64,000 nucleotides of DNA. Origin: Hyalella azteca (Eukaryota > Arthropoda > Malacostraca > Amphipoda > Hyalellidae). The translations under genes were made by a program, and so were the position numbers. Under the pieces are notes generated by a model. That model was not told where the DNA came from and ran no database searches. It saw nothing but the letters and a program-made list of their open reading frames with translations. Location: contig NW_025936008.1 in the NCBI RefSeq assembly GCF_000764305.2, forward strand, positions 124,001 to 188,000, written 5' to 3'. Position 1 is the stretch's first letter; every line of letters begins with the position of its first letter. Below are positions 411 through 49,554 of the stretch, piece after piece.

Positions 411-3400
411 ATCGCCCATGATCATCATGCAGAGATATCTGCACATGGCAGTGGAAGCAGTATAGCTGTTTTGACGTCTTCCGGCCCTGAGAATATGAAT
501 GTTCCTCAAAACTGGTCACCCCATCAGCATGGGTTTCGAAATCACCCAGAAGGAAATCCGAATCACTTCAGTGGTGAGGGGAATCGCAGTGCCCATGTTC
601 CCAGAGGATATAATTCGCCTCAGTGGCGTGGAAGAATGGCACCCGACAATGACCGCTTCAATACAAGTCATCCCATGGAGAATAGAATGGGGCAGACCTA
701 TGGTGGGATGCAGCAAAGCCGTGGGGATCCTTCGAATCGTAGAAATTATGCAGGTAAATTTCCTGATACCTCGACTTCGTCCCTGGCACTTCCTCAAGAC
801 AAGTATGCTAATAAAAATATCGCATCAAAACATACTGAAAAAATGGAGACGAATGTTAGTGCTCGTTGGCAACGACTCCAGAGTTCTGACTCTGAAAGTG
901 AGAGTGATTCAGACAGTTCTGAATCTGGGTCATCATCCAGTGGTCAGTCTAGCTCTAGTAGCTCCAGTTCTGATTCGGGTTCAAGCAGTGAATCTTCTTC
1001 CGACAGTGAAGATGAAAACCGTGGTAAGAACAAGAAAGGTCCAGAAAGCAAATCCCAGAGTAATAAAAACCAAAAAGATTCAAAGCAAGACTTTGCCAAA
1101 GTCACGTCGGATTCCGATGGATTTACTTCATCCATTAAGAAAGAACTGGATCAGGAAAGTGAAAAACACTTCGTATCGAACTCAATTAACCCTCGCACTA
1201 TTGGCAATTCCCTTGAATTGAATGATCCAGCGGCAGCTGTGGCTCGAGGTGTCGCTTTGCCACAGCTTGCTAACGAATCTGGCAGCATTAGTGAACCAAT
1301 ACGATCGATAGGTCATCCACCCGCGCATGAATTCGAAATCCCTTCATCTACTCAAAGTCTTAGTGCTACTAACTCCTCTCTAAATGTAAAACTTGAATCT
1401 TCTAATTCATCTGTAAATACACCAATCAAGGGAGTCGTGCAACCGCCGTTGATAAATCCACAAGAAACGCCTTCCTGTCGAGGCTCTCCTCCTCAACCGC
1501 TACGAAGTTCGCCAATGCGTCCTAATTCCCGTTCACCGTACCGCCGAAAGTATCTTTCTCCGTATCGTCGAGATTCTCGTTCGCCATATCGTCGAGATTC
1601 CCGTTCGCCTTATCGTCGAGATTCCCGTTCGCCATATCGACGTGGTTCCCGTTCGCCTTATCGTCGCCGCTCGCGTTCTCTTTATCGTCGCAATTCACGG
1701 TCACCTTATCGACGTCGTTCTTCTTCACTCTCTCGTCGAGGCTCTCGTTCGCCTATTCGTGGTCTTGACTCGCGATTGCTGATCAAACGTAAGTCGCTTT
1801 CTCCAGGTCCTCATAGTCCGCATTTACACCTTCCTCGTGGCTCTCGTTCTCCAATTCGTCGTAGCTCACGCTCGCCTCTTCGTCGTGGCTCTCGATCGCC
1901 TATTCGCCGTGGCTCTCGCTCGCCCATTCGTCGTGGCTCACGCTCGCCCATTCGTCGTGGCTCACGCTCGCCCATTCGACGTGGTTCACGATCACCCATT
2001 CGACGTGGCTCCCGTTCGCCCATTCGACGTGGCTCCCGTTCGCCAATTCGACGTGGCTCCCGTTCGCCAATTCGTCCTGGTTCTCGTTCGCCCATTCGCC
2101 GTAGCTCACGATCGCCTATGCGACGTGGCTCACGATCTCCTATTCCTTATGGCTCGCGATCTCCTATTCGTCGTCATTCACGTTCACCTCTTCATCGTTG
2201 GTCACGATCTCATATTCGGCATGGCTCACGATCACCCATTCGTCGTGGCTCACAATCGCCCATTCGTCGTGGCCCAAGATCGCCCATTCGTCGAGGCTCA
2301 CGATCGCCTATTCGTCGAGGTTCACGATCGCCTATTCGTCGTGGCTCACGATCGCCTATTCGTCGAAGCTCACGATCGCCTATTCGTCAAGGCTCACGAT
2401 CGCCTATTCGTCGAGGCTCACAATCACCTATTCGTCGAGGCTTACGCTCACCTATTCAACGTGGCTCTCGATCTCCAATTCTTCGTGGACCTCAATCGGT
2501 TCTTAGGCGTTCTCATTCATCATCCAAACCCGGCCCTCGTTCTCCTCCAGCTAAAGGTGCGAGTTCCAATCAGAACTCGCTTTCCAAATCGCCCCCCAAA
2601 CAAGTTGTTTCTCTGTCATCTTCCAATCGGAAGTCTCGATCTCCTGCCAGACGACGCTCAAAGTCGCCTCCTGAATTAGCATCTCGATCTCAAATCAGAA
2701 GATGCTCTCGCTCTCAATCACGATCAAGAAATGATTCTCATTCTGTTCCAGAATCCAAAAATTTGTGTAAGCCTGTCGCTCTTGACAGTCCAATGCCACC
2801 ATCCAGGAGAAATGGGTCTTCGACATTTGAAGTCGACTCCAACCGTTGCACTGCATCGTCGCCCGCGGGACGCGTTTCAAGATCTCTTGTTCGCTCCTCA
2901 CTTTCTCCAAAAAGGCGTGTCGGAATGAATTCGAATTCGCCCTCCCGTCGTTTAATTGAACATCATCACGCAACATCGCCTCGGAGGTTAGGAAATAGAC
3001 CTCCAATGCGAAGGTCGCAGTCGCCAATGAAGATGGATAAAAAGATTTCATCTGAAAACCAACCACGTCCCTCGCATAAAACGTGTAGGTCACCTTCAAG
3101 AGAGTTACACTATCATAAAAATCTAGTCCCCTCTGACCCGAACTTGCAGAAACTTGGCAAGGCATTTCCGCGATATTATCGCAGTACTTCCAAATCACCA
3201 GGACGATACTCTCCTGTTCAGCGTTCTCCAGGAAGAACTGTTAGATCATCCCAATCAACACTTCGACCTCCTCCAAGTGAGAGTTTGAGACCTCATCCAG
3301 GTGAGACTAGTTTGAGGCAATCTTTTGGACAAAATGCTCGGGATATTCAAAGATATCCTCGATCTCCAATTAATCGTCGCTCTTCGTCTCCAGCGTCCCG

Positions 3401-6400
3401 TGCAAGAATGTCTCCGAACAGTAGGTCTGTGAATCGAAGAAAATCGTCATCACCAGGATCTAAAAGTTTCATGCTCAAATCTCGATCACCAACGAACACT
3501 AATTTTGGTCCGGGATATGGCCCTATTTCTGATAATTTCATGGGAAATTCCCGTCCATCTCGGCGATCTTGGTCTCCCGAAATTTCCGGTCAGCCTCAAT
3601 TCCAACGTCATTTCTTGAATGAACGTGTTCAACGCTATCCGCCTGATGGTAATCTTGCATCCCATTTCCCTTTCGCACGTGGCCGAACGTCGCTATCTCC
3701 ACAGCGCATGTCTGAACCGCAATGTTATGCAGACGTAACGCGAGATACTTTTGTTCGTAGAGCTCCTTTCAATTCTGAATTTTCTTCAGATTCTTACCGA
3801 GAACTTCGTCCGCCTCATTTTGTTACCAATCAGCATAATCGGAACATCGAAAATCGTGAAATGATCGCTCGTCCTGGCCAGCCATCTGATTTCAGGAACC
3901 CGCGCCATAATCTACAAGGTGAAATGTTACGGTCTAACTGTTATGAAGATCAGTTTTCTAATCGACAAAATCCTCCCAGCATTTGGCCCAAACCTGAATT
4001 CGGCAATTACGGTGCAGGTCGAGTATTACATGGAAATATTCGAGGCATGAATACTCCATTTGAGCGTTTTGGTAGAGGTGGACGAGGAATGCAGGGGATA
4101 GGTAATAATCCAATACCACCATTATTCCCTGGAAAAATGGTGCCAGGGGAATTCAATAACCCCTATGCGAGAGGTAATGATGTAGGTTTATTGGGTGATC
4201 TGCCCTCTTCTGTAGAGAACCGAAATTTCTCCCGAAATCCTTCTGCTGTGCGCGGAGTGGGTCACAGGGAACGTGCCAGAGATGACCCGAGTAGCGTTCT
4301 TTCAAGTGCCAATGAAACTCCCCTCGGTAGAAAGCGTCAAAACCCTTCGTCTCAATTAGATTCTCGGCGTGAATCAGAAATGCATGCGACTGAACAGCGG
4401 GGCATCCGCGACGGCGCACAAGATGTAACTTTAGGTGGCCGTAATAGTTCATTTCTCAATGCTCCTAAATTTGATCCAACCTTTCCTCTCAACATGCAAC
4501 GAGATCGAGATGGACAAGGTGAAATCCCGAGGAAGAACCGCAATTCACCGGACGGTGCGTGCCGAGGATTGTTCGATCATACTAAAGGCTTGCAAAGACC
4601 CAGAGTCCACAACGATGATCGAGGCGGCAATAGAACTAATGAGCGGCCTGAAGCGCGGTTCACACGACGTGGTTCTCCTAATCATCCGGATGGCAGAGGT
4701 CGTGGCCAAGAAAAGGCACTTCACTCCCGGCCCCCGCGAGGAGACGTCGAAAGACCAAATAAGGAAAAACACGATAACGATCAGCGAACAAGAAGGGTAG
4801 AAACAAAACAACGGTTAAATCGCGGTGATGACAAAACTTCCGATAGAGGTAACTTCCATAACGATGATAGAGGACGACCAGAATCTTCAAGTAAAATCCA
4901 ACGCAATGATAAGCGTCCCATGAGCAGCAAGAGCAACTTAGAAGTTTCCGGTGACAACCGTTCCAACGAATCTCGTAGACCGGTTGCTTATGAACAGTTA
5001 TCTACTCCTACGTTGCCCAATAGTCGCCGTCTTTCACAATCGGATAGAGCTGAAGAACATATTCTCGACAGTTTTGAGAAAGCTCAAAGACCAGATAGTG
5101 AGGTTACAAAAGGGTCTCAAGATCTGCTGGAAAAGGGGCCAGAAAATCCTGTCGAAAGCGAACGTGCAACAGATGGAGAAACAATGAAAAACATTAACGC
5201 TACAGATTCTGCTTCAATTGCAGATGTTGCACCCATCGAGCTAGTTCCTGCCGCCGTGAGCAAAGTAAAAAATGAAAAGAAAGGCCCTACCACTCCATGT
5301 GGGTCTCCTTCTGGTGTGCCAGATAAGACCACCCCTAGTTTTTCTCCTTCCGAAATGCATACTTTGAGAGTGGATAATAGCTTGAAAAATAAGGAATCTG
5401 CCGATGAAAGTACTGATGTTCATGATATTGGAATTGAAATGCACGTTCCTTTGGACGAAGAGCATGCATTTGGCCCTAACTCTGAATTGGACTTCGTGTC
5501 TCCAGAAAATCCCAAAGTCAATACGGTCAAAGAGTGTATTGATCAGGGGCTACTGGCTAAAGCTCGTGATAGAGCTTCAGGAAGCGAGATCAAACACAGT
5601 AATTCACTGACAAAGAAAGAAGAATCGAATGAATATGAACAAAATCGGGATCGTGAACGTGGTCGACGCGTTCATGGCGATAAACGGGAGGTTAACGAGA
5701 GTGTTCAAACCGGCTCTGGTAGAGCGGGTGCACACGAATACATTCAGAAAAATTCAGCTCGTGATTCTAGTAGGTCGGACAGCCATGGTGCTAGCGATGG
5801 TCGCTACAGGAACGATTACAGTAGGAATGACCGTCATCCAGCAAACGTCCATGATCGATTGGTGAAACTCGGAAGAGACAGAGTATCTGTGCAGGATGAC
5901 CCAAGATTCGAAAGCCGCCGCTTGAAGACCGAGTCTAGATTTGAACCCCAATCCAGACCAATTAATGATCGTTATAGCAAAAAACCAACTGACATCAATA
6001 GAAGGGATCACGATCGCGAACATCGCAAAAATTTTGGTCGAGATTACAGAATTGACAAGCGGAGAGATCAACCAGAGATGGAATCCAAGTCGGATAATTT
6101 GGAGCGTGGACGGGGTTCGAATTTGCATCGTAAAGGAAACGACCGGCGGATGGATCAAAACCAAAATGAAAGTTCAAGTCGAGATTCCAGGCCACGTGAA
6201 GATAGGTTAAAGCGAGATGCATCGCGCGAGAGTAAAAGGGAAGATATGAAGTCCGGTGACCGTAGAACTGATGAAACTCTTCGCACGAAAATGGAATCTC
6301 GTTTGGTGAGACGATCTCAAGACAGGAGTGATAGTGCGAATAAGCGCACGGAACAGCAGAGCAGATCGCATAGTAGGAATGAAGAGCGAAGTGACCGCGA

Positions 6401-8093
6401 AGGACAAACCAAGAAACGCAAGGAACGTTCTGGTAAAACTAGAGAGGACGATTTATCATCCATAGCCGATAAATCGGACCGAAATAAGAAGTCGGAAAGA
6501 GAAAGTTCAGCTGTTGACGCTGAGAAGAAACGCTCAAAGAAAAGAAAACGGGAGGAAGATAAGATAGAAGATGGCAGTAAAGTTATCAAAAAACATAAGA
6601 AAAAGAAGCGAGCTATTGAAGTCGAGAATGAGCCCAATTCCAAGAGAAAGTCTGTAGCAGCTTCCAGAAAGAAAAATAAAAAAGAAGTGGTAGAAGGAGA
6701 AGAGGAAACTAAACCTGAGAAAAGGACGAAGTCTCCAAAGAAGAAAAAGAAGAAAGACAAGAAGAAGAAGAAAGCGAAGAAGAGCAAGAAGCCAGCCCGC
6801 ACGTCTGATGAGGAAGGCTCCCAGGAAGAAGATTACGCCCCTAAACGCAAGCAAGGTGTGTAGTTAATCTGCTGTCTCTGTACCATTTATTCGTTTGTTG
6901 TACATTTTATGATAGTGGATATCACCACTTCGCGGCCTTTCTTGTATCGTGTTGTACCTACTTTTATCAATATCATAGTTGAAAATGTGCAATATTTCGT
7001 AGCTCTGTGCCAGCATTGATATATTTTTGAGAGCCTTGAATCTTTCGAACTATTCATCTTGAATGGTTAACTAAACTAGGCCATTAAAAATTTCGTTTTT
7101 GTCGGATTACGTTCAATCATACTATCGATGGTTGTAAAAGTTAACAAATTATGTTTAAAAACATTATGCTTAGCGTATACATTTCTCAATTTCAAGCATT
7201 TTAATTTGCAGACCGACATTCGGAGTCTTCCAGTGAAGATTTACGCTACACGCTTAAGCGCAAGATCGCAGATGATGCTGACAGCAGCTTCGACACGAGT
7301 CCTCACAATGCACGCAAGTCAAGAAAACCTCTGCATGGCGCTGACAACCGTGACGTTGGTGTTGAAAAAGACGGTCGTCCTCAAGTTCCTACACGAACGA
7401 TCTTCGTTCTCAAGAATGACCTTGCCGAACCTCCTGCTTCTACATCTCGCCATGGTGATAGCGCACTCGATACTTCAGACGAGCGGCCGTCCAGTAGGAA
7501 CAGAGTGAACGAAAAACACCACCGAAAATACGGACGGAACAGAGACGTAAAGGAATCGGGAAAGCAAATCCTAGAAGTCGGAGGAAGACGGAGTCGCGAT
7601 GGCGGCTGGGCCAGCAACCGCGAGAAGCCAGTCTCCGTCGACGCTGAACCGAAGAGCAAGCACCTTGGAAATGATCTTCGTGAGTCCAAACTTAATTCTT
7701 GATTCAGAGTAATTTTTTCGCTGTGTAAAGATCAACTCTAAAGATTGACTTTTTCTTAGTTGGTTTGGAAAATGTTACGACTGTATTTATGGTATATGTA
7801 TAATATGTATTAGCATTAGGTGGCAGAATTCTCTTATTTAAACGCGTATGAATAATTGATTCCCTAAAAATTGAAATATAATAAAGTGCATTCTCTGGTC
7901 ATTATTCGTCCGCGTATAATATATATGTGTACGATATAATAGCTAAACCTTTGCAGATGACCCGGCTGGCGATAGAGTGCCTGTGCACCTGAGGCTGGGT
8001 CCCGTATCTTCCCCGGTCGGAGGAGGTCGGCGGGTCCTGAAGAATACCAGCGGCAAGAGAGGCGGCAACGCCGCACGTTTCCGGAAGCTCTGA
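411..8093 (+). CDS. large serine/arginine-repeat nuclear protein (SRRM2-like), 5' partial
   Basis: Three exons: 411-6855, 7212-7679 and 7957-8093, giving at least 2349 residues in the window. The frame is open back to a splice acceptor at 410, so the N-terminus is missing; the first in-frame ATG inside is at 495. In order the protein has a Ser/Asp-rich tract (about 881-1015), a long RS-repeat tract built on RSPIRRGS (about 1516-2490), disordered Arg/Ser/Pro and Arg/Asp-rich stretches, and a Lys-rich nuclear-localisation-like tail (about 6530-6830). The last exon ends with DPAGDRVPVHLRLGPVS and a basic terminus. Donor GTGTGT at 6856 and acceptor TTTGCAG at 7211 join in phase 1, as do GTGAGT at 7680 and TTTGCAG at 7956. 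If the first intron is kept, the frame stops two codons past the donor. Such proteins usually act in spliceosome or nuclear-speckle assembly. SRRM2 itself is not proven, because the diagnostic N-terminal cwf21 region would lie outside the window. Confidence 0.8.
1516..2490 (+). repeat. coding 24-bp minisatellite encoding RS octapeptides
   Basis: A tandem DNA repeat with a 24-bp period inside the large SR exon encodes about 30 or more copies of an S-R-S-P-I-R-R-G type octapeptide. The first part is a Y-R-R variant (SRSPYRR). Units differ mostly at synonymous or single positions, so the array grew by unequal exchange while keeping the frame. Each unit presents SRSP sites typical of SRPK/CLK kinase targets. 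Confidence 0.85.
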
Positions 8094-39648: not shown

Positions 39649-42600
39649 GCCACGTACGCCACTTCGGTCTCTCGTTCGTGACTGTCGAGGTCTCATTACA
39701 GTAGAAGTTTTTCACCAATGACATTCGACATTGAATAATTAATTCGACTAAGAATTAAGGCCCCTCATAACCTGTTTTGACCTAGCGTCATGAGAGCAAG
39801 AGGTGAACGCACTAATAAGAGCTTCGAAAAATTAAGATATGAATGTAAATGTAGACTTGTCCGGAAACATGAGGTCAACAATATCTAGTGTGCATTCTTT
39901 CCGGGTACATATTTTCCTATTTTATTCAAGATTTTCTTAAACTTATTTCAGATTTTCTCTCATCCCCGTATCAATATCATCCCAGGTTTTTTTTATGACA
40001 TTATCTTATGAAGAAACCTGGCGAGTATTATTGTTTCTTCCCGAACATATCACTTGAGTGCCCGTGTTGCCTGAAACGCTACTTAGATCGCAGCCATTAA
40101 TTTTTCACAGATCGAGTCGGCGACTAAGACTGATGCATTGATCGGGTATCATCGGCAGGTTGCAAGTTTACTGAACTAATTTCTGCACCACCGTCAATAT
40201 ATAAAAAGTAGAATATTTACGCGATTGAGAAACTTTGCAACTAATAATACCTTACGTTTTATTTGAGTTCAAGTGATGTTTTCGTATGTCGTTGAATTTA
40301 GCTTGACATATCTAACATTGGTCGTTATACGCATGTCTCGTCGTGACAGCTAGAATCTGTGGGTATGGTGAAGATTTAAATTCGTTTTCTCAACGTAAGT
40401 TATTATTAAACATAAAAATTTCTTTTAAGTGAATTCAGAAATAAAGACTTAACGTTTTTAATACGAAGCAAGACTCTACCTGCGTGCACAAATTGTTTTA
40501 GAAGAGTGCATATTGGTTATTGGTCGTCGAGTAGAAATGAAAGATTTGCGCTTTTAACATCGCAATGCCATTAATCGGCGCTTCCTTTCTTGATTATCCT
40601 TGTCTGATGATAACGTAAAAGCTATAATATCCTGGGCGTTAACCACCACTTATTATTCTCCGTGACTTTTTACTCTAAAGTGATTTATTTTACTTATTGA
40701 AATGTTTAGTGACGACAGCACATAGAGAATAAACTTTCACAACGATCGCAATAATATGTAGTAATTTACAGTCGTAATAGTGTACCGTGTATAGTAAAAT
40801 ATTTTCAATCTCGATGATATTTCTTGTACAATGTGTTATACAACACCTCTCGTAACCTTCCTTTTTTTACCATGAGTGAAGTGAACGAGCCTTCGACAGA
40901 GCCTGTCCACGGAAAACCAACCTCATCAGCAGAATTTTTAATTCTGCACGAATTTTTTATTAAGCTGAAAGAAAATATGGGTTTAATATTTTTACTGTTG
41001 TTGAACTTGAATAATATAAATAATATCAATAATATCATGTTGAACTTGAATTTGAACAGCCAGTCTTCCCATTATGTCGGATCTAATTACTTTTAATACT
41101 CTTAGAATTTATTTTTAGTGGTAGGTAAATTCATGGAGAAAAAAAGTAATACCTTATATTGAATTCGAACATTAATGAACTATCTAATGCACATCAACTT
41201 TTTTCGGTGAATTTTAAACACTGAATGATCGTCAATTCTTGTTAAGGATCTACATCGTTCAGTGATGCTTTGATGTTAAATTAAATGGAAGTAATTTCAT
41301 AGAAAGTTTATTGAAACGCATAAAATATTGCAGTTCATGTTACATACATATATTTAAATCATTAGTTTCTTAGGGCCGAAAATATGTACTACGCAAAAAA
41401 TACATTAGAAGCAATACCAACTACATTAACATTTTAATTGATACAATACTTCCTCATATGTTAATTTTATAGAATTATTGCAAATATTACATCACTAAAA
41501 ATATTGATGGTCGACTATCATTGTACTCGAAACCAATTAAACCAACATGAGGGTGACAGCTAAACAATCCGAAGTGCCTCCAAGAAACGTCCTAAACACG
41601 ACAGAAAACAGCCAAGAAACACCAATAAGACATCGAAAAATTAAACCACATTTTACTCCATTGGTGTAATATCACGTGAGTATTAAATACACAACATTAA
41701 TGTTTGAACACATAAGACAACCTGTAAGGAGGGTTGTAATATAAAAAGAATCGCAAGGAAATTTTATATAAAGCATATCTTATCATGAAAGAAATGTGCA
41801 GCCAGATTTCAAAAGTAAATTTTCAAGACCAGCAACTTCTAAACAAATTGTTCTAGTATGACAATGCAAACAAAAATTTAATACATGTATCAAGCCCTCA
41901 CAACATAGACTATCCTTAATGAACAAATTATACCATTAACAACTATTCATCATAGTTCGATGTCTGGTGCTGATAAAATACGTTGTGTGATCCGTATTCT
42001 CATCGGTGAAAGAAAATTTGATCGGTGTACAAATTTTCTATGTATGTATAACATTTTATATTTATTATTCTATGCTAAGGGGAGCTCTAATGCTTGCTCG
42101 TTCCCGTCTGCCTTCTCAGGAAACTTCTTATTCATGTGGATTACTGTAATTACCGATCATGGGTATTGCCGTAACTCCGTAAGATTCATATCCGTTTTGA
42201 TTACCGTAATCTAAACGTTCAGCTGGAACTGCAAGACCCTAAAATATCGCTCTGTTTTTTCATGGATTATTTTGTATAATGATGAAAACTTAGGCTATCC
42301 AAGTTTTGTGCAAGCAGTTTCATAAAACCAGAGTAACCACAAATGAAATACTAATAGGTATAACAGTTAGAATATTGAACACTGAAAAATTAAAGTATAC
42401 TGCATAATAAATAGAAGTAGCAATTATCCTTATACTCTTGTATTCTTCTTGGGCAGTTCACTCACATAGAAATTATTTATTTATTGCAACATAAGTCATA
42501 ATTTTACACCCTCTTCCATTTGCTCCAGGAAACATCTGCTGGGTGTTTCTCTGGTGGATCAGAAGGTAAAGTTATCTTGATCACGGAATTTTCACTTATT

Positions 42601-42649: not shown

Positions 42650-45600
42650 TTACTCTGTGGTGTTGTGAATTTTGTTTATGTTCCATCGACTCTTTTCCAC
42701 ACGAAAAGTAGCCGGTAATTTCAGGGCCGCGGTGATGAGTGACAGAAGGGAAAGGCCAAGCAAAGTGCTCACTAAACCTCCCAAATCTCCGGCCAATTCC
42801 GGCCAGGATGACTCCGGTACGTCTTCAAACTGATTGAAATATTCACCATCTGGTACAATTTTTAAAACGCGTTCACTCGACAGCTTCTGGACGAAGTCGA
42901 CCTGCATGTAGAGACTCGCGCACTCAAGTGGGCATTTGCCAAAGCAAACCGTCCGATGTTCGTGATACCATTTGGATTGTTTTAACTGGAAACGATTGCG
43001 TGGAAAAGTGCAGTAGGCTGAGTGATTGCACGGCTGAAGATGTTGGTACTGGTCTCCGTTGAAAGGCATTCGACACTGGAAATGAGTGACTATACTATCG
43101 ATGATACAATTTTCCATGCATCGTTTTTGGGAGTACGTAGGTTCAACGGAACATGACGTCTTCTGTGGAAGGATAATATTTCTTCGGAATGAAGTTTTGA
43201 ACAAAAAACCGACTATGTAATTCTGGCTGTCGATTTCAAGTTGGCTGTCTTCATAAATAAAAATGGGATCATCGAATTTATTGTGAATTTGTATATACTG
43301 TGTAGGCTTGTTGGCCTGAGCCAAGTTTAGGACATTGTTGACATCATAATCGTCCAGTGGATTCGATCGCTCCCAGGGCAAGAAACTTGGCAGTACAAAT
43401 TCGATTTCGATTTCCTGACTTTTTTCTGGCATCGTGAATGTAAAGCAGCGACCTAGAGAAGTCATACGCGAAGTCCAGTATTGATCATCCACAATGGTTC
43501 TCCCCACGGATATTTCACTTGAATTAAACCTGTAAATTGATACCATATCACGGAGCTCCCAGCTTGATTTATTCCAAATCTCTTCTATCGAAAGATTATT
43601 TCGGTGTAGGGATAAGTCACTCAAGTCTTCGAACAGTTTCGGAAAATCGCAATCTAGAAAAACTAAATTGTATGTGCAATATTTATCTAAATCAATGGTC
43701 ATACCTAAATCAATCATTTTAGAAAAATTAAAGGGAGGCCAGTTGCAAATAGTTACTGAAGGAATAACGGATGCGTCAATTTGAACTTTCTCGTAAAATG
43801 TATGCACGGAGACATCATAGAATTTTTCGATAAGTTTTGAAGTGATGATGGTGGTACACACGATTATAGTTGCTAATTTAACTGTGTACGTCAAGATAAT
43901 TTCGAGGTGGCCCAAGAGCTTGCACATGGGACTACTGACCTTAAACTTGTGTTTGGCAAGCCAGTTAATGCCTGCTAGTGAAAAAGCGGCAAGGTCGATG
44001 ACACTCCAGCCAAAGTAAAGGCCAAGGATGCCAATAAGCTCTAGCATTAACTGATCATCAGTAATAAGCAAAGCTTCAGAATAGTGGACGTTTGACTGAG
44101 GCAGATACTCGAGCTCGTACGACTCGGGAACATTTTTAAAGCGCTTTGATCCAGGAATGAGAACGACATATTCCAGCTCGCAGGGTAATGGACATTCGAG
44201 ATCGCATGATTTTATACCGCTTGCCCATCGAGTTTCATTCAATTGTAGGCGAAGATAGCCGCCTTTGGGGAATTGACTGTACTGAGGCTGCGTGTTGCAT
44301 TCTTCAAAGGAGTCTAGTCTCAATGATGGCAAAGTGCAATTCAAATGACTCGCAGCGGTTTTGTAAATGCATTGATTCCAACATTGAGTTCTTTCGTAGG
44401 GAGGCGGTTTACAAAATCTCTCAGGTGTTGATATTAGCGATTTGCGTGTTTTGAAAATATTGTATTTCATGTTTGTGGTCTTTTTACTTCCTAAATCAAT
44501 TTCAAGTCGCGTTGCATGCAGGTACGGATTTCTCGGGATCACTCCAAAAACGTATACGTACATCGACCGAGTATAGCCGCCATGTTCAAACAGAAACTTT
44601 AATGTTGACAGCGGATCAAAGTTGGCGTCTGCAAAGAACATTTGGGTGATTCCATTTAAATGGGAGACGTTGGGTGAAAGGCAGTATCCGCTGGACGTCA
44701 AAACATGGCGCCATGAGTGCAGATCTGTAGAATTTCCGAATGAAAAATTTATCAGAACCTTCTCGACAGGCAGTCTATGGTTCCACCAAGTCATTGAGAC
44801 ATTTCTCTCTGATGGCCATAATTCAATCAAGTTATCAAGTGCATACTTCAGAACGGCTTCTCGTTGACAAAATCCACTTTTGACGCAAAGTCCGCTTTGA
44901 ATAAGAGCAGAGAATATTGTGCTGTTGCTTGCGTTTGTTAAGCTGAAAGGGAAGTCTAAACACAGAAGAACTTCAGGGAAATGGACATCGGTCGATCCCA
45001 TTGTAATGCTGGACACAGTTTCGTATGCGAAAAAATTTGATATCATCTGAAGAGAATGCAAAATGAGACCAAATGTCGACATTGTCAATCCTATGTAGAA
45101 TGAAAGATTTTTAATATGAATGCAATTATCATTATTCGCGCGGTTACTTTCCGTGAGCTTCTGTTTGATTTTCTTAATACATGTCAAATATTTCGTAAGT
45201 TTATACGTTAAAAATTTCCATAGTCCTAGAAAATTCATACCAATGATCACCCCAATGCATCCACCAATTTTAGAAATTATTCGTGCCAGACTGAATAACT
45301 GAGTTTCCGTCACATCGATGATCCCAGTACCCAGTTGGATCTCCAGAATGTGGTCTCCGGGACGATATATTGACGTCGGGATGCTTGTAGATTCCACTTG
45401 CGTCGTGTATAAAATTTCTGAACACTTTTGTTTGCATTGTTCCACACAAAGGCCATCATCTATCAGGGATTCTACGCCGCGCAAAAAATTCATAACTCTT
45501 TCTCTCATTTCAAAGTAATTCTGTGAACACCAGTTTCCTGTGTTTGTCTCTGCGTACTGGGAATAAATGAAGCATGATCCATTGGTTATAATTTTTTCGA

Positions 45601-46456
45601 TGCACAGCGATTTGCAAACAGATGATGAATAGTCGTCAGAACTGATACAGTCTGAGTTGGCTGGTAGAGAATTTTCGTTGGTTTGTTTCACTGTCACTTT
45701 AATGTTCTGCGCGGCACAATGATCGTTAAATGTTACGATTGCGCTTCGATCATTTATTGTTGGCGGGTTCAATCTGTTGTGGATGAGAACAACAAAGCGG
45801 CTCAAATCACTTCGATCCTGCGACAAATAAGCAGACTTTTCGTACGTGCAACTTGAGTTACAGAAGCGCGCCACCGCTTCACAATTTCCATATACGTTCC
45901 GCTGAGTGCTGGGCATGTCGTATTTTTTGCTGTATGAGCAAGGGCTTTGTGAGATCACTGATACTTTGGCTGTCACAAATGCGTCCATGGGAATAGTCTC
46001 AATTGGCGGTGGCGCAAACGTCCAGCAAGGTCCCAGAACTGTATAAGATATCTGCCAGAATTTATTGGCGGACTCAGAAGTGACGTCCCACTCTAAGCCG
46101 TAGTGCGTTCCCTTGCGCACTATTTTGTGCAGTGGCACTGACCCATCCCTCCATATTGTCTCAACACTAGTATTATTAAAATTTATTCCATTCAGTTGAA
46201 AATAGTTATTCCAGCAGTCGGTGTTTATTTCGCACGATAAATTTAATCCAATAGAAGGAAGGTATTGTGGATCAAATAGACCTGGGGGGCAGATTGTAAC
46301 AGCAGGAAGAATTGGACGGTCATGTCGGATGGTGAACACCAGGCCGTACGGTTTTTCATAGGCCTTCTCGATTATAAACGCAATGTTTACAGAGAGGAAA
46401 ATATAAGCTAAAATCGTCAAGAATGTTTGTTTAAAAGAAAGTTTTTCACGAGCCAT
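42650..46456 (-). CDS. triple DEG/ENaC (pickpocket-type) sodium channel, three subunits in one frame
   Basis: A single frame of 1268 residues with no intron, about three times the usual 450-600 for this family. Subunit 1 (residues 1-435): TM1 about 9-29, then PAVTICPP, LGPCWTF, a Cys-rich domain, and TM2 about 390-416. Subunit 2 (446-835): TM1 about 449-474, FPEVLLC, SGYCLSP, Cys-rich 682-760, TM2 about 804-830 with the selectivity-filter-like GWS. Subunit 3 (846-1268): TM1 about 848-872, IPSVTICNWPPFN, LGRCFTF, Cys-rich 1102-1180, TM2 1221-1247 with GLS. Subunit 1 has GMN at the G/S-x-S filter site. The linkers (about 30 and 16 residues) would be cytoplasmic, as the known topology requires. 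The start ATG at 46456 leads straight into TM1, so an upstream coding exon is possible. These channels pass sodium at the plasma membrane as trimers. Confidence 0.85.
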   Translation of the reverse strand: MAREKLSFKQTFLTILAYIFLSVNIAFIIEKAYEKPYGLVFTIRHDRPILPAVTICPPGLFDPQYLPSIGLNLSCEINTDCWNNYFQLNGINFNNTSVETIWRDGSVPLHKIVRKGTHYGLEWDVTSESANKFWQISYTVLGPCWTFAPPPIETIPMDAFVTAKVSVISQSPCSYSKKYDMPSTQRNVYGNCEAVARFCNSSCTYEKSAYLSQDRSDLSRFVVLIHNRLNPPTINDRSAIVTFNDHCAAQNIKVTVKQTNENSLPANSDCISSDDYSSSVCKSLCIEKIITNGSCFIYSQYAETNTGNWCSQNYFEMRERVMNFLRGVESLIDDGLCVEQCKQKCSEILYTTQVESTSIPTSIYRPGDHILEIQLGTGIIDVTETQLFSLARIISKIGGCIGVIIGMNFLGLWKFLTYKLTKYLTCIKKIKQKLTESNRANNDNCIHIKNLSFYIGLTMSTFGLILHSLQMISNFFAYETVSSITMGSTDVHFPEVLLCLDFPFSLTNASNSTIFSALIQSGLCVKSGFCQREAVLKYALDNLIELWPSERNVSMTWWNHRLPVEKVLINFSFGNSTDLHSWRHVLTSSGYCLSPNVSHLNGITQMFFADANFDPLSTLKFLFEHGGYTRSMYVYVFGVIPRNPYLHATRLEIDLGSKKTTNMKYNIFKTRKSLISTPERFCKPPPYERTQCWNQCIYKTAASHLNCTLPSLRLDSFEECNTQPQYSQFPKGGYLRLQLNETRWASGIKSCDLECPLPCELEYVVLIPGSKRFKNVPESYELEYLPQSNVHYSEALLITDDQLMLELIGILGLYFGWSVIDLAAFSLAGINWLAKHKFKVSSPMCKLLGHLEIILTYTVKLATIIVCTTIITSKLIEKFYDVSVHTFYEKVQIDASVIPSVTICNWPPFNFSKMIDLGMTIDLDKYCTYNLVFLDCDFPKLFEDLSDLSLHRNNLSIEEIWNKSSWELRDMVSIYRFNSSEISVGRTIVDDQYWTSRMTSLGRCFTFTMPEKSQEIEIEFVLPSFLPWERSNPLDDYDVNNVLNLAQANKPTQYIQIHNKFDDPIFIYEDSQLEIDSQNYIVGFLFKTSFRRNIILPQKTSCSVEPTYSQKRCMENCIIDSIVTHFQCRMPFNGDQYQHLQPCNHSAYCTFPRNRFQLKQSKWYHEHRTVCFGKCPLECASLYMQVDFVQKLSSERVLKIVPDGEYFNQFEDVPESSWPELAGDLGGLVSTLLGLSLLSLITAALKLPATFRVEKSRWNINKIHNTTE

Positions 46457-46910
46457 TTTAAAGACAATGATTATTATTTTTCAGTTTATTTGTCAAGTTT
46501 AAATAAATCACGCAGGAATATTTAGCACTGTAAGATTATATGCATACTCTGACTCCATTCTTTAGACGATCATGAACTCCACCATTGCCTCTTCGACAGT
46601 GACCATGCTTTTCACTGACCACCTTAACCTTCAGGAGTGATTTTCTGAGTGATACCGGAGTGATTCTCTACTGCCCTCCACGTCTATGATCATATTGATT
46701 ATCGAATCACACCACGCATATTTTTCCATTTGGTAAAACTTGATTATCTGATGCCATTTAATCATGTATATAGTTTGCGAAGACTAGCTTCATTGAATGA
46801 ATTGCTTCGTTAGCACAAGTTTACTTGGTGACGAGCCTTCTTGTTCCGTTAATCGTTGCTATGGCGACAGAATTTTTATGTTATGTTCTGAGACACCATA
46901 CCTTCACAAG
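46457..46910. other. upstream flank of the DEG/ENaC gene
   Basis: The promoter of the channel gene should be here on the minus strand. I see no clear TATA or initiator motif. The right side runs into the 42-bp minisatellite. Confidence 0.35.
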
Positions 46911-47147
46911 AGTTGAGTGTTGCACGCAGCAGTTGTTAGTGTTGCACACAATAGTTGAGGGTTACATGCAGCAGTTGTTAGTGCTGCACACAATAGTTGA
47001 GGGTTGCATGCAGCAGTTGTTAGTGTTGTACACAATAGTTGAGTGTTGCACACAGCAGTTGTTAGTGCTGCACACAATAGTTGAGGGTTACATGCAGCAG
47101 TTGTTAATGTTGCACACAATAGTTGATGGTTACACACAGCAGTTGTC
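46911..47147. repeat. 42-bp minisatellite, block 1
   Basis: Nearly six 42-bp units, each made of two related halves (AGTTGAGGGTTACATGCAGC and AGTTGTTAGTGCTGCACAC). The period is divisible by three, so both strands show long but meaningless frames. The same units recur at 48951-49157 and 50719-50965. Confidence 0.92.
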
Positions 47148-48840: not shown

Positions 48841-48950
48841 TTCCTTTTTTCTCATCAGAAATGGTGGAAACGACAGTTGTCTTTGGTGCAATCCCCCTAT
48901 TCAAGACGTTCCAGCACAGCCTAGCTGGTTGTTGAATGGACAATTAATGT

Positions 48951-49157
48951 TTGTGCTGCACATAATAGTTGAGTGTTGCACACAGCAGTTGTTAGTGCTG
49001 CACACGATAGGAGTTGAGTGTTGCACACAACACTTGTTAGCGCTACACACAACAGCAGTGAGTGTTGCGCACAGCAGTTGCTAGTGCTGCACAGGACAGG
49101 AGTTGAGTGTTGCACGCAACACTTGTTAGCGCTGCACACAGCAACCGTGCGTGTTGT
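48951..49157. repeat. 42-bp minisatellite, block 2
   Basis: Same unit family as 46911-47147, more diverged, with extra GATAGGAGTTGAG junctions. It ends where the terminal-inverted-repeat element begins (about 49158). Confidence 0.85.
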
Positions 49158-49554
49158 ACACATAGGGCAACATGGGGCAGCGCGCCCACCACTTTATTTA
49201 AACTAAATTTTTGATGAAGTTTTAATAGATACGAGGTGGTTCTTTGTTTTGTTTAAAGGTACAACTAATGAAGAATGTATGATGTGAATTAGACGTCTAT
49301 AGTGTTATTCAATTTTTACTGAAACACTATTTTGTAAAAAGTGTCAAAATGGGCCCATTTCCCCACCCCTGGGGAAATGGACCCATGGGCTTGGGGCAAG
49401 GCGCCCACCCTTTGTCCCTTTACCACAATTGCATATTTTCCGTTTAAAAATGATAAAACAACACTTTACAGTTGAAAATAAGAAAAATGTAATAAAAATA
49501 TGACATTCATTCATTTATTAACAACTCAAAGAATCATATATACTTAACTTGAAA

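Follow-up and report, generated by a model that had tools for sequence, protein, structure and literature searches.

Three DEG/ENaC subunits in one reading frame of the amphipod Hyalella azteca: a possible natural concatemer

Channels of the DEG/ENaC family form homo- and heterotrimers, and artificial concatemers are a laboratory means of asking which subunit ratios are important in vivo. Might an animal genome encode a concatemer of its own? The question is raised by a long open reading frame, called gene A here, in a 64,000-nucleotide stretch of Hyalella azteca DNA (the window; positions 124,001 to 188,000 of contig NW_025936008.1, handled here as C1578, in an assembly of 519 Mb and 4,890 contigs). 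A reading of the letters alone (the original prediction) had claimed that three complete DEG/ENaC subunits are fused there in one intronless frame, and this claim is supported by our analysis and strengthened by a second gene with the same layout on contig C691. We consider it near-certain that gene A joins three divergent DEG/ENaC subunits in one frame. With moderate confidence, we further favor the view that its product is a naturally concatenated 1:1:1 pseudo-heterotrimer with one pore, which would let cations pass with weak selectivity, unlike a standard Na+ channel.

Three channel domains in one open frame

Gene A runs from ATG to TAA through window positions 46456..42650 as a single frame of 1,268 codons. 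This confirms the length and the intronless state of the frame as originally predicted and adds the strand, which is minus. The coding part has no intron, and the 5′ untranslated part may still hold one. The start codon lies in the context AAAATGG, with an in-frame TGA nine codons upstream. A run of 1,268 open codons would arise by chance with a probability of about 4e-35, as estimated solely from base composition, and the five other frames of the same stretch each carry 50-79 stops. Stop codons would be created by 5.2% of single substitutions, and an unselected frame at 1% divergence would still be open with a probability of 14% when only stops are counted, or of 0.3% under the assumption of one frameshift for every ten substitutions.

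Compared with the Pfam profile PF00858 (ASC; curated cut-off 23.6 bits) by hmmscan, the whole frame scores 157.5 bits over three stretches. The frame was also cut into thirds (D1 to D3), and all three (3/3) contain an ASC domain above the cut-off. Such tandem matches were anticipated by the original prediction, and the outcome that it had named as speaking against it, fewer than three ASC domains, did not occur. The features of the locus, including the first and second membrane spans (TM1 and TM2) of each third, are as follows.

42650..46456, minus strand: gene A, triple DEG/ENaC protein, single 1,268-codon open frame
45155..46456, minus strand: domain D1, residues 1-434; ASC match at residues 12-416, profile positions 27-453, 47.1 bits, E-value 2.3e-12
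46370..46426, minus strand: D1 TM1, residues 11-29, by hydropathy; only 10 residues precede it
45212..45268, minus strand: D1 TM2 core, residues 397-415; filter triplet GMN
45107..45211, minus strand: linker 1, residues 416-450; 35 residues with 8 Lys/Arg and 2 Asp/Glu, predicted cytosolic, without a Met codon
43907..45154, minus strand: domain D2, residues 435-850; ASC match at residues 450-820, profile positions 22-447, 46.2 bits, E-value 4.3e-12
45050..45106, minus strand: D2 TM1, residues 451-469, by hydropathy
43982..44038, minus strand: D2 TM2 core, residues 807-825; filter triplet GWS
43901..43981, minus strand: linker 2, residues 826-852; 27 residues with 4 Lys/Arg and 1 Asp/Glu, predicted cytosolic; contains Met844 in a weak start context
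42653..43906, minus strand: domain D3, residues 851-1268; ASC match at residues 861-1241, profile positions 29-450, 82.2 bits, E-value 5.5e-23
43844..43900, minus strand: D3 TM1, residues 853-871, by hydropathy
42722..42778, minus strand: D3 TM2 core, residues 1227-1245; filter triplet GLS
42480..42485, minus strand: AATAAA, candidate poly(A) signal, beginning 164 nucleotides past the stop codon

The six hydrophobic spans predicted by hydropathy lie at the places expected from a 2+2+2 layout. The ectodomains between them measure 367, 337 and 355 residues in D1, D2 and D3 and contain 17, 12 and 13 Cys, respectively; glycosylation sites occur in every ectodomain and are uninformative. Lys/Arg residues make up fractions of 0.23 and 0.15 of the linkers versus 0.08-0.09 of the ectodomains. 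Because each third has two spans, both linkers would be on the same side as the N- and C-termini, which fits a cytosolic place. The two short cytosolic linkers proposed earlier are thus borne out by the predicted topology.

The three domains resemble one another only weakly. A local alignment of D1 and D3 has 88 identities in 433 columns (about 20%), that of D2 and D3 has 45 identical columns of 188, and that of D1 and D2 has 34 of 174, with a z-score of only 3.4. It therefore seems that the domains are old and divergent, and not the result of a recent triplication. Among PDB chains, a combined profile of D1, D2 and D3 matches ASIC1 (E-value 5.5e-6), ASIC2 (5.8e-5), FaNaC1 (1.8e-4) and a thermal receptor (0.005), and D3 alone finds ASIC2 at 4.9e-4 (phmmer). 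Matches of the combined profile to pickpocket 26 and ENaC (0.5-1) are not significant, and two Rieske entries matching D3 (0.48 and 0.7) were taken as chance.

A second triple frame and the ordinary genes of the genome

Is gene A alone in its genome? Reciprocal protein searches (E-value ≤ 0.01; four candidates scored in each) point to one partner. The gene A protein finds only itself and C691:19959-20345 (E-value 3.1e-4; 25% identity over 129 residues), and the reverse search with the frame at that place, gene B, finds only itself and gene A (5.3e-4). Outside the 129-residue match, the two are barely alignable.

C691:19797-22742 (L026:4798-7743), plus strand: gene B, second triple DEG/ENaC-like frame, 981 open codons, six predicted spans

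Gene B has three span pairs, linkers of 19 and 25 residues, and ectodomains of 354, 145 and 264 residues. As a whole it scores 30.5 bits against PF00858, above the cut-off. Taken alone, its first domain (B1) reaches 23.0 bits (just below the cut-off; E-value 4.9e-5) and its third (B3) reaches 23.6 bits (at the cut-off; 3.3e-5). When the D1-D3 profile is compared by hhalign, the probabilities are 96 for B1, 68 for B3 (TM2 only) and 37 for the middle domain, B2, which is read as a reduced DEG/ENaC domain chiefly because of its position and its TM2. This genome thus seems to contain two frames of three subunits each. No ATG precedes the first span in the gene B frame. A splice acceptor (TTTTTTTCTCCACAG) is present, and a short candidate first exon with an ATG start lies 122 bp upstream of it; this exon is predicted to be spliced in frame to the rest, for a total of 984 residues and with a probable first intron of 122 bp. 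A TATAAA stands upstream of the gene at L026:4592.

The remaining DEG/ENaC genes are built differently at the loci examined. A PF00858 search of the genome up to an E-value of 10 yielded 50 matches from 51 scored candidates: two in gene A, one in gene B and 47 elsewhere. This search is not exhaustive, given that D2 of gene A is not among the 50, and further triple genes could be missed. The 47 other matches each cover at most 130 of the 455 profile positions, versus 422 and 427 for the two gene A matches. At 27 of the 28 ordinary loci examined (28 of the 47), the frame over the match on its strand is at most 142 residues; the 28th, L029, is cut by a contig end and its longest frame anywhere is 120 residues. 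Judging by these short frames, the ordinary DEG/ENaC genes examined are split by introns. On C3906, for example, pieces of apparently one ASC domain lie at 43.3, 46.5 and 58.3 kb.

The frames at the remaining 19 ordinary loci were not seen in full, and the search output reports long ones for five (C2780:105590, 432; C617:57992, 427; C1901:62395, 313; C1401, 250; C2780:199865, 250). At two other loci such reports are contradicted by the DNA: a frame of 388 reported on C3611 was found to be 82, and one of 362 reported at C2780:165858 lies in a locus whose longest frame is 107. At C617:57992 the last 118 codons are open, and a long ordinary exon is possible there.

These comparisons bear on whether the gene A frame could be an artefact. 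The frame is unlikely to stem from chance, from an isolated sequencing error or from a fusion of gene models, because a second triple gene exists, because the two genes are each other's only matches, and because no other ASC match covers more than the short part of the profile noted above. A hidden stop, or an assembly or single sequencing error, is likewise judged unlikely, on the basis of the second triple frame and not of a check of reads. Moreover, two intact frames as different as these argue for long upkeep, since neutral decay should have broken them.

Two further observations concern the ordinary genes. Between about 26 and 236 kb of C2780, ASC exons form a tandem-like row over roughly 210 kb, apparently a local expansion. 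In addition, PF00858 also scores above its cut-off in the control genome of Thermotoga maritima, which is odd for an animal channel family.

The pore and the nature of the protein

What kind of channel, if any, might gene A encode? In an alignment made by eye around the filter triplet (positions 10′-12′), from which the prime numbering derives, the gene A domains have Gly at 10′ in three of three cases and G-x-S in two of three. The gene B triplets are DVC (B1), GFS (B2) and GVS (B3). At 18′/21′, gene A has K/T in D1, A/L in D2 and T/L in D3, and gene B has L, P and K at 18′ and L, H and H at 21′ (B1, B2 and B3). No acidic residue stands at any of these 12 positions in the six domains. Nor does a His-Gly (HG) motif occur in any of the six segments before TM1; the two HG dipeptides of gene B lie in its C-terminal tail and within a B2 span, respectively. 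The deviant pore-lining residues of gene A had been missed in the original prediction. Its claim of three complete sets of family landmarks holds for the three domains and for TM1, the Cys-rich ectodomain and TM2 of each; the sets depart in part from the standard, with no HG motif before TM1 and with the filter triplets GMN, GWS and GLS.

Ordinary TM2 exons of the same genome carry at least one acid at 18′/21′ in six of seven readable cases, as found by motif scans that require a G-x-S-like triplet and may miss odd exons:

C617: E/E
C3906: E/E
C3611: Q/E
C4429: E/F
C2173: E/E
C4246: E/I
C3658:775360: F at 18′, then a stop, perhaps the exon end; the one exon without an acid

The Na+ selectivity of ASIC1a is governed by two residues near the cytosol in TM2, E18′ and D21′ at its cytosolic end, and the PNa>PK>PCs profile collapses in ASIC1a concatemers with E18′Q in two or three subunits (PMC5449180; this and the other papers are cited for the portions retrieved). 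In ASIC1, the HG motif that precedes TM1 is located below the filter, and the motif is kept in most if not all DEG/ENaC members; CeDEGT-1d lacks it, and thus it is not strictly defining (PMC8536179). An acidic 18′/21′ ring is typical of ASIC and ENaC, and we do not take it as defining for the family. Judged by its residues, the gene A protein has a non-standard pore, and because the 18′/21′ acids are missing it should, if it conducts, be poorly selective for Na+.

From the frame, the domains and these residue changes, we infer translation of gene A as one chain, an intramolecular trimer and altered selectivity. Three subunits would be joined via short cytosolic linkers in one polypeptide, and the fused domains would most likely fold together around a single pore, giving an obligate 1:1:1 channel of fixed composition as in laboratory-built ASIC concatemers. 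One shared pore seems the simplest fold because the number of subunits equals that of a DEG/ENaC trimer and because they are joined on the same side. The pathway would be weakly cation selective because no subunit has the 18′/21′ acids or the HG motif, and because D1 has GMN instead of G-x-S. More tentatively, with somewhat less than an even chance, we suggest that the two genes represent a small family of natural trimeric concatemers. In that case at least two deeply divergent, intron-poor genes of one animal would encode single-chain DEG/ENaC pseudo-heterotrimers with specialised slots, each slot having lost the acidic ring, and the resulting pathway for permeation or sensing would differ from known DEG/ENaC channels.

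Several results weigh against these proposals. The whole 1,268-residue chain finds no PDB chain at an E-value ≤ 0.01 (phmmer), and AlphaFold2 gave no usable model of D3 from a three-row alignment (mean predicted local distance difference test score 31.9, predicted template modelling score 0.23). In gene B, the middle ectodomain has shrunk to 145 residues, and B2 alone reaches only 10.4 bits against PF00858 (E-value 0.33; TM2 only), which is not significant. Together with the DVC filter of B1, this means that the layout may persist even where channel function is lost. Missing 18′/21′ acids and a missing HG motif could even mean no conduction at all. Finally, when the domain order was permuted, the native order scored lowest (64 vs 66-96 with BLOSUM62, 117 vs 118-176 with BLOSUM45), a result that we read as uninformative and not as disproof, given that the test has free end gaps, which favor sliding. 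Between the genes, clear likeness is confined to two domain pairs, A1-B1 with z-scores of 13 to 20 and A3-B1 with 8 to 12; A1-B3 is weak (2.0 to 6.7, depending on the method), and the pairs A2-B1 (3.1) and A3-B2 (2.8) are weaker. Because of this pattern, and because the permutation showed no preference for the native order, one ancestral fusion behind both genes is not shown.

The main rival to a conducting concatemer, which we regard as unlikely though deserving of attention, is a fused DEG/ENaC-like protein with a degenerate pore that serves as a scaffold for ligand binding, adhesion or the regulation of ordinary channels. The lack of 18′/21′ acids in all six domains, the lack of HG before any TM1, the DVC filter of B1 and the reduced middle ectodomain of gene B would all suit such a role. 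So would the findings that PNa/PK becomes 1 and currents are small when E18′ is replaced by a charge-neutral analogue, and that concatemers with S12′A in all three subunits are non-functional (PMC5449180). However, gene A keeps Gly at 10′ throughout and G-x-S in two of three domains, and the HG motif is also missing from CeDEGT-1d, as stated where PMC8536179 treats wild-type permeability ratios.

In a second rival, the three domains of a chain share no single pore, and domains of two or three chains form trimers while the rest stay free or cluster. The inequality of D1 to D3, with most ectodomain Cys in D1, agrees with this arrangement, which is also a known general hazard of concatemers. We consider it improbable: the three domains are exactly the number needed, the same number recurs in gene B, and linkers of 19-35 residues look long enough to reach a neighboring subunit. 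Very improbable, in our judgment, is that gene A yields no single working protein at all, either because separate products arise via internal starts or processing or because it is a decaying pseudogene. Met844, nine residues before D3 TM1, could start a D3-only product, and this looks like the sole internal-start product at all possible. Its context is weak (CCCATGT vs AAAATGG at the start), linker 1 has no Met, the first Met of D2 lies inside TM1 (residue 459), and no stop ends D1 or D2 in the frame. As for decay, the frame is intact and a second intact frame exists elsewhere.

Known systems, origin and neighboring observations

We now return to gene A as a putative natural concatemer and compare it with what is known. 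Its thirds share with the DEG/ENaC family (ASIC, ENaC, FaNaC, degenerins and pickpockets) the ASC match, two predicted spans and a Cys-rich ectodomain. In contrast, known members are single two-span subunits working in threes (PMC9822975), whereas gene A has three in one chain and lacks the HG motif and the 18′/21′ acids. Synthetic ASIC trimer concatemers are functional (ASIC2a-3, PMC10329638; ASIC1a, PMC5449180) and likewise combine three DEG/ENaC subunits into a single chain, at a fixed stoichiometry. However, they are engineered from known subunits, whereas gene A is natural and has short linkers and subunits only about 20% alike. In Drosophila, the clustered pickpocket genes ppk11, ppk16 and ppk18 are speculated by the authors to form a sodium-sensitive channel contributing to salt taste (PMC3583452). 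Such clusters consist of neighboring separate genes, an arrangement that could give rise to a fusion, whereas gene A is one frame.

A literature search, in part ill-targeted, brought up no natural DEG/ENaC concatemer in the titles or abstract beginnings of the matches listed, and multi-ASC database entries may exist. The retrieved portions of PMC7738191, PMC11534843, PMC9822975 and PMC10507113 contain nothing on fused DEG/ENaC subunits.

If gene A does encode a concatemer, then its stoichiometry would be fixed in the genome and each slot would be free to evolve. In four-domain Nav and Cav channels, internal subunit repeats give a one-chain pore, as proposed here for gene A; however, these are tetrameric pore-loop channels of an unrelated fold. 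Gene A would thus be a trimeric counterpart of the Nav/Cav domain fusions. Furthermore, with the acidic ring lost in all six domains of two genes, the lower-pore model of the selectivity filter (PMC5449180) would become testable on a natural protein.

How might such a gene arise? An intron-free coding frame beside mostly intron-split ASC genes, some of them in a tandem-like row, leads us to speculate that gene A derives from a retroposed read-through transcript of neighboring genes or from intron loss. A reverse-transcriptase fragment (RVT_1, 34.2 bits) lies about 0.9 kb past gene B, and a short open piece 0.9 kb upstream of gene A was read by eye as the end of a long interspersed nuclear element, without a Pfam match. 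As hints of retroposition, both are weak and circumstantial.

Other features of the window and the assembly are recorded here in their own right. About 450 bp upstream of gene A is a 42-bp tandem repeat, and a repeat of similar look follows farther on; a long frame near the start of the window resembles an SRRM2-type splicing protein.

46905-47146: tandem repeat with 5.8 copies of a 42-bp unit (in another reading, a 126-bp unit)
48948-49162: repeat of similar look
471-6863, plus strand: open frame of 2,130 codons with abundant RS/RGSRSPIRR repeats and without a Pfam match at an E-value ≤ 0.1

The mitochondrial contig (C4890; L022 and L023) has 15,991 bp, and TGA, taken as Trp, occurs nine times inside COX1. 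Its atp8, nad3, nad6 and rrnS genes were placed by eye and are unconfirmed; nad6 has no Pfam match, and nad2 matches only a general family. The protein-gene order reads cox1 cox2 atp6 cox3 ... -nad5 -nad4 -nad4L ... cob ... rrnL nad1 nad2, with rrnL-nad1 on the cox1 strand and nad5, nad4 and nad4L on the other. This order fits that inferred for a hypothetical ecdysozoan ancestor, which has been called not realized in extant species (PMC5856267).

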